Assembly (NCBI GenBank): GCA_021775965.1
Contig: JAJFGV010000105.1
Location: 1-64,000 of the forward strand
DNA length: 64,000 nucleotides
Direction: 5' to 3'
Source: Alphaproteobacteria bacterium
GTDB taxonomy: Bacteria; Pseudomonadota; Alphaproteobacteria; Micavibrionales; Micavibrionaceae
The translations under genes were made by a program, and so were the position numbers. Positions 514-3,573 of the stretch are shown piece after piece. Within the stretch, counting starts at the first letter, position 1. Each line of letters starts with the position of its first letter. Below the pieces are notes generated by a model that searched no databases, was not told the origin of the DNA, and saw nothing but the letters and a program-made list of their open reading frames with translations.

Positions 514-1476
514 GTGAGCCCAATGCCCAAACGAACCTATTCAGAAAAGACTGAGTTAAACAAAAGTTTTTTAAAAGAAAAACTACGGCACCTTTGGAAC
601 GGCGAACTCCCCTTCTCAACCGTTTTCTGGAGCTACTATGTCTTCGCAACCTTTTCTTTTGCTACTTTGTTTTGGATCGGAACAGCCGTAAATATATTTG
701 CTCCTCTTTTAGGTAGCCTTGTTAGTCTTCTGTGGTCTATATTTATGATCGTTCCCATGTGGAGAGCCGCTAAAAACCACCAAGGGTCTAAAGCTTGGGT
801 AACTTTCGGGTTAACAACATTTTTTCTAGGTTTGGTTACTCAAATACTAGTATTTATGCCGTATTCTCATACAAAAACTGACAACAGTAATAATTATAAA
901 CATGTTGATTATCAACGCGATGCAGACATCTTGCGTCTGCATGACCTTGTTTATATAGGAGAGCTGATAGAAGAATACTATGAACAAAAACAGCGTAATC
1001 CGCTTACTCATGACGGACAAAAACCTAAAGTCGTTTATATTTTAAGCAAGGAACAAGCTGCTACTGTTGAACATGATTACAGTAAATCTGATCCTATAGA
1101 TGTATCTCTTTTTATAAATGAACTCAAAGAGGGCCTAGGAAAAGAAATTATTTTGCCAATCGACCCACAAAGAGAAAAAGTGAACTCTAAGAACATTTTT
1201 TATACATATGAAATTCGTTCCAATGGATCTTATATCCTTTCGGCTTTTACACATCATGGATTTATGTTTGCAAAAAGGTTTAGCCAGCATAACAATAGAG
1301 TATCGATTGGCTCACATGCACTACCTAAAGAAAGTATATTTCTTTTAGATCAACTCAAAAAAGAAAAATACTTCCAAGAGGCTTTCAGCGCACCTCCTCT
1401 TAAACCAGGACACTTAGAAAGCATTAGAAAAGGTCTAGTGCAGGATATCGGTTATGGCTCGATACCTTTGAAATAA
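514..1476 (+). CDS. Unknown three-helix membrane protein
   Basis: I do not recognise the family. The protein (320 residues from a GTG at 514; 317 from the ATG at 523) has three hydrophobic segments at about residues 36-56, 58-82 and 96-116. A charged, probably soluble tail of about 200 residues follows, with no motif I can name. It begins 5 nt after the transketolase stop, so it may be co-transcribed with tkt. The coding sequence is visibly richer in A and T than its neighbours (many AAA, TTT and ATT codons), which suggests transfer or relaxed selection. The start choice is uncertain because neither candidate has a strong ribosome binding site. Confidence 0.7.
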   Translation: MSPMPKRTYSEKTELNKSFLKEKLRHLWNGELPFSTVFWSYYVFATFSFATLFWIGTAVNIFAPLLGSLVSLLWSIFMIVPMWRAAKNHQGSKAWVTFGLTTFFLGLVTQILVFMPYSHTKTDNSNNYKHVDYQRDADILRLHDLVYIGELIEEYYEQKQRNPLTHDGQKPKVVYILSKEQAATVEHDYSKSDPIDVSLFINELKEGLGKEIILPIDPQREKVNSKNIFYTYEIRSNGSYILSAFTHHGFMFAKRFSQHNNRVSIGSHALPKESIFLLDQLKKEKYFQEAFSAPPLKPGHLESIRKGLVQDIGYGSIPLK

Positions 1477-1488
1477 AAGAGGAAGCTT

Positions 1489-3036
1489 TTAGAAATACCA
1501 CTCGTATTCTAGAATTGCCTTCAGCGTTGCATCGGGCGCAGAATCAGATACCCCAAACAAAACCCCCACATCATAACCGAAATGCCCGAAATGCCCATAC
1601 GCGACCGGTCCAGCCATATGTTTTTGCTCGCTGTAGGAGCCGCCGTCACTGAGTGATCCAAAATCACTATGCACTTCAAAGCCCGGCTCGAATTGCTCAT
1701 CAAGGCGATACTTACTGCTCCAGGCAAAACCAGCCTCAGTGTCATCGCCCGAATCTTCACCAAATTCACGCTCCAAAACCAAATTCGTCGCGTGCGATGT
1801 CCGCCCAACATCCTTGGCCAGCAGTAACTTCACTTCCGCTGCATCAGAGCCGCCCGCCGTATTATATTTAAGCTCGGTCAGAACGCCGACATCAACAAAG
1901 TGCTCGCCCGGATTGGTCAACTGAAACTTATTTTCCCACTCAAGCTCCTTCGTCTCGGCATCTGCGCCGCTTGCACCGCTTTTTTCAAACTCAACCACAA
2001 ATTCGGTAAACCAATATTCCGTGACGCCATAACCAATCGCGCCCTTCTGCACCCACTTGCCATCAACATCACTATCGTCGTCGACCTCATAGCGCCCCTT
2101 CCACTCAACCTCCAGCTCGCCCTTTTCAACATAGGGTGTATATACCTTCTTGGTCGCCTGCGCCTGCCCCGGCATCATCATAAGCGCCGCAAAAATAACC
2201 GCCGCCGCTGTGCCTGCTGCATTTTTTGTATTGATCGTTTTTTGATCAGATAGTCTCATTAACATTATCAAAGTTCCCAAAGTTAGAAGATAAACAATAA
2301 GCTGAATAGCGGTCGGCCTTGCCGTATAACCAATCAAAGTCCCAAGACTTTGCCCGATAATACCGCCCTCCTCCAGCAACCATGAACTGTCCCAAACCGT
2401 TTGTGACAATCCCTCAAACGCTCCTGCCGCCACCAGAAATCCAGTCCCTTGCAACATCATGCCCGCCACCAGCAAAACCAAAAGCCAGCTAGTGACAATA
2501 AAGAACCAACGGATCGAAAGTTTGATCAGACCGAAATACAACGCACCACCAACAACCGCGCCGCCGATCAAACCAATCCCGGCACCACCAATAAGAGCGG
2601 CCCACGACATCCCTGATGCCAGCATGCCGTAGCTAAACAGCACAATCTCCGAGCCCTCACGCAAAATCGCCAGACCAATCACAAGTGACAAAGAAAAATA
2701 AGGAAGATCACCCGAAGCCACAGCTTCTCCAACCTTCATAAAATGCCCCTTCATTTCCCGCGCATGACGTTTCATCCAGAGAACTGTCCAGCCAATAAAA
2801 GCCGCCGCCGTAAACAAGATCGCAGCATTAAAATATTCCTGCCCCATGCCTTCAGCAAAATTTGAAATACCATCGGTAAACAGCGCCACCAGCGCCGAAC
2901 CGGCGAGGCCACCAGCAAAACCAAGACCAATCGCCTTGCCCCGCCCCGGAATCCCCCGCGTCGCCGCCAGCACAATGCCGACAATCAGGACAATTTCAAA
3001 TACTTCACGAAATACAACGATGGCGCTGGATAACAT
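1489..3036 (-). CDS. FTR1-family iron permease fused to a C-terminal barrel-like domain
   Basis: Residues 1-260 are an FTR1/EfeU-type high-affinity iron permease with several membrane helices. The two iron-handling REXXE-type motifs are visible: REVFE at 10-14 and REGSE at 126-130. Family members normally end soon after this domain. Here the frame continues through a second signal-peptide-like stretch (MRLSDQK at 260-266, a hydrophobic core at about 273-289, AQA before Thr295). It then runs on as about 220 residues of alternating acidic/aromatic beta-strand-like sequence that ends in YEWYF; a terminal Phe is typical of outer-membrane barrels. No stop or frameshift separates the two parts. A cupredoxin gene lies upstream in the same direction behind a Fur-type operator, so iron-starvation expression is likely. 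Confidence 0.85.
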   Translation of the reverse strand: MLSSAIVVFREVFEIVLIVGIVLAATRGIPGRGKAIGLGFAGGLAGSALVALFTDGISNFAEGMGQEYFNAAILFTAAAFIGWTVLWMKRHAREMKGHFMKVGEAVASGDLPYFSLSLVIGLAILREGSEIVLFSYGMLASGMSWAALIGGAGIGLIGGAVVGGALYFGLIKLSIRWFFIVTSWLLVLLVAGMMLQGTGFLVAAGAFEGLSQTVWDSSWLLEEGGIIGQSLGTLIGYTARPTAIQLIVYLLTLGTLIMLMRLSDQKTINTKNAAGTAAAVIFAALMMMPGQAQATKKVYTPYVEKGELEVEWKGRYEVDDDSDVDGKWVQKGAIGYGVTEYWFTEFVVEFEKSGASGADAETKELEWENKFQLTNPGEHFVDVGVLTELKYNTAGGSDAAEVKLLLAKDVGRTSHATNLVLEREFGEDSGDDTEAGFAWSSKYRLDEQFEPGFEVHSDFGSLSDGGSYSEQKHMAGPVAYGHFGHFGYDVGVLFGVSDSAPDATLKAILEYEWYF

Positions 3037-3184: not shown

Positions 3185-3517
3185 CTACTTGGCGACGACT
3201 TTGCCTTGCGCGGTGTCCATATTAAACTCACCAAAGAACGGATACTCACCCGGCTTTAACGGACCGATAAAAACAATCCCCTTACCACCACCGCGAATAA
3301 TTTTTTCACGGTTCAATTCATAGCTCTCAAATTCTTCCGGTGTTTTGTCTTCGTTCATAACGATCAACTTCACTTTTTCACCGGCTGGCACTTCGACAAT
3401 CTCGGGAATGAATTTGTGATCTTTAATTCTTAAGGTAATTTCTTCAACGGCTTGCGCAGGTTGCGAAAACACCAAAACACCCAAAGCCAAAACTGGTAAT
3501 AATTTGATAAGTTTCAT
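3185..3517 (-). CDS. Periplasmic cupredoxin-like protein of the iron-uptake operon
   Basis: This is a 110-residue secreted protein. The signal peptide covers residues 1-23 (ends PAQA), followed by a single cupredoxin-like beta-sandwich (IKDHKFIPEIVEVPAGEKVKL, then PGEYPFFGEFNMDTAQG). The cysteine ligand of classical blue-copper proteins is absent and Gly occupies that loop, as in the cupredoxin-like partners commonly found beside FTR1 permeases. It therefore probably helps deliver or oxidise iron for the downstream FTR1 gene and is not an electron carrier. It is first in a two-gene minus-strand unit, with a Fur-type palindrome directly upstream. Confidence 0.85.
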   Translation of the reverse strand: MKLIKLLPVLALGVLVFSQPAQAVEEITLRIKDHKFIPEIVEVPAGEKVKLIVMNEDKTPEEFESYELNREKIIRGGGKGIVFIGPLKPGEYPFFGEFNMDTAQGKVVAK

Positions 3518-3531
3518 GATAACGTCCTTCT

Positions 3532-3573
3532 GTAAATGATAACCATTCGCAATTAAGAATGATTATCATTTAC
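3532..3573. promoter_or_regulatory. Fur-type operator (double palindrome)
   Basis: A 17-bp inverted repeat with one mismatch, GTAAATGATAACCATTC at 3532-3548 and GAATGATTATCATTTAC at 3557-3573, lies 15 nt upstream of the cupredoxin start. Both halves contain the GATAATCATT-like core of Fur boxes. The arrangement suggests iron-dependent repression of the cupredoxin-FTR1 operon. Confidence 0.85.

Follow-up and report, generated by a model that had tools for sequence, protein, structure and literature searches.

Results

An FTR1 permease and a predicted barrel in one frame

In the window, which is the whole stretch of 64,000 nucleotides analysed here, an FTR1 iron permease and a predicted outer-membrane barrel are encoded in one reading frame and are joined by a predicted internal signal peptide. 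It is probable that the product is a polyprotein, which would be cut by signal peptidase I to give an iron permease and an outer-membrane partner, under iron control, with the cleavage and the transport as the steps that we infer. The features of the gene are listed below.

1489 to 3036, minus strand: FTR1-barrel fusion gene, 515 codons plus stop; an ATG-to-stop frame, with the same fusion in 27 genomes
2257 to 3036, minus strand: FTR1 iron permease part, residues 1-260 (Pfam PF03239; REVFE at residue 10, REGSE at residue 126)
2155 to 2256, minus strand: linker and predicted internal signal peptide, residues 261-294, with a basic n-region, the hydrophobic core AAAVIFAALMMM and the c-region PGQAQA
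1492 to 2154, minus strand: mature part, residues 295-515, predicted by AlphaFold2 to be a 12-strand outer-membrane barrel; C-terminal Trp-Tyr-Phe

The earlier note had described this frame, and its 515 codons were borne out at these positions, on the minus strand, which it had left unstated. Both REXXE-type motifs, the AQA site (residues 292-294), Met260 (2259-2257) and the aromatic-aromatic-Phe ending, which is WYF at the C-terminus of the protein, were found as it had described them. In a Pfam search with the fusion protein, PF03239 (FTR1) matched residues 1-288 (115.8 bits; cut-off 25.3). The EfeU equivalog NF041756 was not reached by the same protein (114.4 bits against an NCBIfam cut-off of 255), and a sequence search of the solved structures gave no relative of the FTR1 part at E<=1. 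The loop charges of the FTR1 part, judged by eye, fit a topology with the N-terminus outside, seven transmembrane segments and the C-terminus inside.

Two genes joined merely by a sequencing or assembly error were one of the cases that the earlier note had named as fatal to its reading. No point supporting such an error was found, and it is contradicted by the relatives: a single frame holds FTR1 and the barrel in 27 genomes, of which 16 belong to the window's class and the other 11 to a second class, with the family code f194, which may be the Zetaproteobacteria. The single frame was checked in all 27; G753 is cut by a contig end, leaving 26 complete fusions. Within the window's family, full-length fusions were present in 8 of 104 genomes (G000, G018, G036, G066, G092, G093, G094 and G099). 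Searches with a barrel profile, which covered partly overlapping sets of 142 genomes of the order, 385 of the class and 398 of the phylum, added same-class fusions in G122, G125, G130, G135, G197, G256, G415 and G512, as well as the eleven of family code f194. The named fused relatives were Micavibrio sp. DHS20C02 (93% identity over the best segment), OFTM66 (85%) and Micavibrio sp. UBA5703 (77%), and the fusion also recurs in OFTM260, at about 45-46% identity to the window protein over the best segment. Furthermore, differences in the linker among four genomes of the window's genus fell on codon positions 3, 1 and 2 in the numbers 87, 36 and 29 (counted pairwise over six non-independent pairs), so the linker is under coding-type substitution in this genus. 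With so many genomes sharing the fusion, an assembly artefact does not account for the window's frame, and a joining error is virtually out of the question. The fusion is one of several states of FTR1 in the class: in a sample of 240 class genomes, 34 of which had FTR1, the 30 FTR1 loci obtained comprised 3 fused to the barrel, 2 fused to a four-Cys domain (see below) and 25 fused to neither.

Predicted fold of the C-terminal part

The domain that follows AQA has 221 residues. The AlphaFold2 model of this mature part, built from a 31-sequence alignment, has 12 strands with a mean pLDDT of 94.8 and a pTM of 0.88, and the part is thus predicted to fold as a closed antiparallel 12-strand barrel, which would be located in the outer membrane. 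A soluble non-barrel domain was rejected on the strength of this model. In structural comparison, the closest fold was FapF (5o65; Z 22.2, 2.5 A over 213 residues), followed by the COG4313 channel 4rl8 (Z 21.7), KdgM (Z 19.1) and the copper protein PcoB (Z 12.8), with 10-14% identity to the FapF and COG4313 channels. FapF has additional N-terminal parts. The C-terminal residue of the 26 complete fusions was Phe in 22, Tyr in one and Leu or Asn in three.

The search of barrel families and the strand prediction proposed in the earlier note thus gave a predicted 12-strand barrel and, among families, only a sub-threshold match to OMP_b-brl (PF13505), for which the whole protein scored 16.7 bits and the part from Met260 19 bits against a cut-off of 28.7. 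The window barrel therefore resembles the 12-strand channels of the FapF, COG4313 and Phenol_MetA_deg kinds in fold, but its mature part had no Pfam match at E<=0.01, to PF13557 (Phenol_MetA_deg) or any other family. PF13557 was reached at this threshold by 4 of 31 barrel relatives (best E 3.2e-5), and a PDB sequence search with the barrel profile gave no relative at E<=1. Since the best fold match, FapF, is a polypeptide exporter, iron as the substrate cannot be derived from the fold. The full-length AlphaFold2 model (pTM 0.46, with pLDDT below 50 at residues 266-295) was too weak to give the relative placement of the FTR1 and barrel halves.

The internal signal peptide and its cleavage

In all 27 fusions the linker starts net-positive and goes on to a hydrophobic 12-mer, and a small-x-Ala triplet stands immediately before the barrel. 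The triplet is AxA in 25 of them, TQA in G631 and SYA in G541. The length and sequence of the linker are variable; in the window its n-region has three positive charges and one negative. In the alignment, the N-terminal signal of barrels encoded as separate genes falls onto the linker stretch of the fusions. As the loop charges of the FTR1 part fit an inside C-terminus, the linker would lie on the cytoplasmic side, as is required of a signal peptide. The FTR1 C-terminus would then be cytoplasmic, an orientation that is read from charges and goes with a positive linker in every one of the 27 fusions. Judging from these sequence features, cleavage by signal peptidase I after AQA is likely.

Two other fates of the junction were considered. 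If the chain were not cut, the hydrophobic stretch would span the membrane as an eighth helix and hold a periplasmic domain on the permease, and anchors with the N-terminus inside do resemble signal peptides. However, the hydrophobic core is short, with a small-x-Ala site within a few residues in all 27 fusions, the same stretch is the N-terminal signal of the separate homologues, and what follows is predicted to be a membrane barrel, mostly with a terminal Phe. An uncut tether is therefore very improbable.

The other fate, offered in the earlier note as a start at Met260, is internal initiation: ribosomes would restart at Met258 or Met260, and the barrel precursor would be made as a protein of its own, headed by a signal peptide of the usual N-terminal type. 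All four genomes of the window's genus keep ATGs here, their Shine-Dalgarno energies lie between -4.2 and -5.5 kcal/mol, and the best start codon (ATG, GTG or TTG) of each linker has a median of -4.2 kcal/mol over the 27 fusions. When the linker ATGs are taken together, however, their median of -2.4 kcal/mol (n=53) is about that of chance ATGs inside FTR1 (-2.45, n=278). The starts of whole genes are stronger, with medians of -6.3 for FTR1 (n=27), -5.8 for the cupredoxin (n=41) and -5.8 for separate barrels (n=47); the last two values lean low because the best of several candidate starts was taken, and a few loci were counted twice. Nine of the 27 fusions have no ATG 20-45 residues ahead of the cut site, where GTG and TTG codons do occur. 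Furthermore, the frame runs through both halves without a stop, which means that a fused product arises in any case. The chance-level energies and the nine fusions lacking an ATG led us to reject an internal start as the general mechanism, and as an account of the window gene we regard it as quite improbable. From the energies in the window's genus, an additional internal start may be possible there.

Of the two alternatives in the earlier note, the start at Met260 is thus weakly supported and the signal-peptidase-cut polyprotein well supported. The latter is backed by the structure prediction, the internal signals in 27 of 27 fusions, the N-terminal signals of the separate homologues and the exchange of cargo described below, and cleavage would be its central step. 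A comparable arrangement is known in the FbcH cytochrome b/c1 precursor of Bradyrhizobium, a polytopic inner-membrane protein with an internal signal that is cut by signal peptidase into two proteins, the second of which stays anchored in the inner membrane. The window fusion likewise has a polytopic inner-membrane part followed by an internal signal. It differs in the second part, which is a predicted outer-membrane barrel.

A different cargo behind FTR1

In two genomes with the genus code of the fused G512, namely G238 (L208, 1501-2631) and G346 (L203, 1132-2262), FTR1 leads into an internal signal with ARA or AMA at its end, and behind this comes a different domain of about 78 residues with four cysteines. 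The four-Cys part of G238 had no Pfam match above cut-off, and the barrel of this genome is a separate gene about 3.8 kb downstream. Homologues of the four-Cys domain outside an FTR1 frame were found in G195 (99 codons) and G324, each with its own signal-peptide-like start, which in G324 appears only when an internal Met of a longer frame is taken as the first residue. The domain was matched in only these 4 of the 289 genomes searched.

Cupredoxin, Fur-like sites and iron genes

A cupredoxin gene lies upstream of the fusion on the same strand, and it is putatively the first gene of an operon with it. The features of this region are listed below.

3185 to 3517, minus strand: cupredoxin-like exported protein of 110 residues, with a signal-peptide-like start ending in AQA (PF13473, 105 bits against a cut-off of 27)
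3532 to 3550, plus strand: second Fur-box-like half GTAAATGATAACCATTCGC, inverted relative to the first and read by eye in the sequence
3555 to 3573, minus strand: Fur-box-like site upstream of the cupredoxin, 15 of 19 matches to the Fur-box consensus, with 0 of 200 shuffles as good

A same-strand cupredoxin was found upstream of the fusion in 26 of 27 cases, and several acidic residues are common to twelve aligned cupredoxins. Beside the unfused FTR1 of G071 (L016, 732-1457), the cupredoxin carries an N-terminal DUF6746 domain, which may be a further partner for FTR1 in the periplasm. Other members of the family likewise have long cupredoxin genes, of 235-285 codons.

Fur-box-like sites were scanned from 250 bases before to 30 bases after the called start, with 200 shuffles for each locus and a consensus that was not learned from this lineage; G693 and G238 were left out for their short upstream DNA. 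A site at p<=0.05 was found in 23 of 26 fusion loci, with no significant site at G036, G130 and G599, and in 20 of 31 separate FTR1 loci. The score was below 14/19 in 6 of the 26 fusion loci, and the best site overlaps the called start in G018, G634, G618 and G197. The genome of the window (completeness 99.2) has one FTR1 and one TonB-dependent receptor barrel match, and searches of it gave no match for P19/FtrA (PF10634) or FeoB_C.

Permease and barrel as separate genes

The window locus is flanked by the end of a transketolase gene and by a GAPDH gene that is divergent from the cupredoxin. Between the transketolase and the fusion there is also a 320-codon frame (window 514-1476), without a confident Pfam match; O-antigen_lig scored 16.7 bits, below its cut-off of 31. 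The same place between transketolase and GAPDH (named by Pfam in G000, G036 and G041, and by clustering elsewhere) is occupied by cupredoxin and fusion in G000, G092, G093, G094 and G036, and by a lone barrel with its own signal in G040, G041 and G044; in G040 and G041 the interval also has further genes of 139-301 codons. Similarly, the barrel lies near transketolase in G043 and G045, and rpoN adjoins a separate barrel in G019 and the fusion in G099. Close FTR1 relatives without the fusion are present in G026, G034, G019 and G020, so FTR1 and barrel are separable. G026 and G034 are not among the 51 genomes with a match in the barrel-profile search.

Phylogenetic trees require 9 changes between the fused and the separate state in the FTR1 tree (59 rows) and 12 in the barrel tree (73 rows), counted in either direction, as fusion or fission. 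These are quick trees with SH-aLRT as the sole support, and at least five of the changes in each fall on well-supported (starred) branches. A single gain of the fusion without later change does not fit these numbers.

The arrangement was sorted for 105 of 130 barrel matches at E<=1e-20; for many of them the flanks were 1.5 kb on each side, and a farther FTR1 would be missed. The fused barrels numbered 27, those with a same-strand FTR1 neighbour 11 (in three gene orders), those with a cupredoxin only 5, those with an FTR1 nearby on the other strand 2 (one of them distant), and those with no FTR1 or cupredoxin neighbour in the flanks covered 60. The barrel family is thus wider than this system and not tied to FTR1 overall.

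Some single loci illustrate other surroundings. In G006 (L059, 4055-5725), a distant FTR1 (E 4e-14) is divergent from a barrel of this family. A cupredoxin, a barrel and a cytochrome b561-like gene stand in a row without FTR1 at L045 4434-6102. At L053, L054 and L055, paralogous barrels have pdxS/pdxT-like (vitamin B6) genes as neighbours (identified through Pfam in L055 and through clustering in L053 and L054), so the barrel family may have other roles, or its neighbours may simply be conserved. In the plasmid collection, one place covering at least 80% of the query was found in only two records, both of Hydrogenophaga sp. PBL-H3. In one of them (L241, 3001-4680) FTR1 and barrel are separate, the barrel is interrupted by a stop, and they lie upstream of GDT1 and DmeF metal transporters.

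These counts bear on a third alternative, in which the barrel is still exported but takes no part in iron uptake and would be, for instance, a general channel, or one for copper or polypeptides, that shares a transcript with FTR1 by chance. The best folds (FapF and the COG4313 channel), the further match to PcoB and the 60 of 105 relatives that showed no FTR1 or cupredoxin neighbour in the flanks covered speak for it. Against it, barrels linked to FTR1 and cupredoxin are found repeatedly, in several gene orders and across two classes, and Fur-box-like sites are present at the fusion loci. We consider this alternative unlikely, and an iron-specific role of the barrel plausible.

Comparison with known systems and proposed route

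FTR1-type permeases are thought to depend on the oxidation of iron by a periplasmic partner. In EfeUOB, EfeU is an FTR1 permease like the window protein, which differs in falling short of the EfeU cut-off (114.4 against 255), and the window cupredoxin resembles the domain of EfeO. In FtrABCD of Brucella and Bordetella, the portion of the report consulted describes FtrB as a periplasmic cupredoxin proposed to be the ferrous oxidase and FtrC as an FTR1-family permease (PMC11966278). The window locus is similar in having a cupredoxin beside an FTR1-family inner-membrane permease. It differs in that the P19-like FtrA has no match in the window's genome, and in that its permease has a fused barrel, whereas no outer-membrane part is named for FtrABCD in that portion (PMC11966278). 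For the p19/FTR1 cluster of Campylobacter, the authors remark that an outer-membrane receptor does not seem to be encoded and cite an assumed one; the window gene, in contrast, includes a barrel. Models of FTR1 iron uptake likewise appear without an outer-membrane component in the part consulted of PMC6083913. FTR1, cupredoxins, 12-strand channels and internal signals are all of known kinds, and no description of the permease-barrel fusion, or of an FTR1 system with a barrel of this type, was found among the titles and abstract openings of the literature searched.

Most simply, the barrel can be read as the outer-membrane component lacking in the FTR1 models. According to the polyprotein reading preferred here, one precursor would be made from the fusion gene, and its FTR1 part would insert in the inner membrane with seven helices and a cytoplasmic C-terminus. 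The positive linker and the hydrophobic stretch would act as an internal signal peptide and send the remaining chain through Sec, and signal peptidase I would cut after AQA (residue 294). The products would be an inner-membrane iron permease and a freed 12-strand barrel, made 1:1 from one precursor, and the barrel would be inserted in the outer membrane by BAM. The upstream cupredoxin may be an iron oxidase or an iron carrier comparable to FtrB or EfeO. Together these parts would form a Fur-controlled three-part route, with the barrel in the outer membrane, the cupredoxin in the periplasm and FTR1 in the inner membrane. The suggestion in the earlier note that the gene links both membranes holds in the sense of co-production; for a physical bridge, nothing suggests one after cleavage.

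A broader proposal, about as likely as not, is that FTR1-cupredoxin uptake has its own overlooked outer-membrane iron channel, that in many bacteria this channel would follow the permease in a polyprotein cut by signal peptidase and so be delivered co-translationally, and that the C-terminus of FTR1 would be a launch site for exported partners exchanged in evolution.

The module offers a testable candidate for the outer-membrane step of FTR1 iron uptake. If the polyprotein reading is true, nature would here produce an inner-membrane and an outer-membrane protein from a single frame, with the latter sent via the route of membrane proteins. As the arrangement occurs in many related bacteria, it points to a possible way for a common iron-uptake system to get across the outer membrane.
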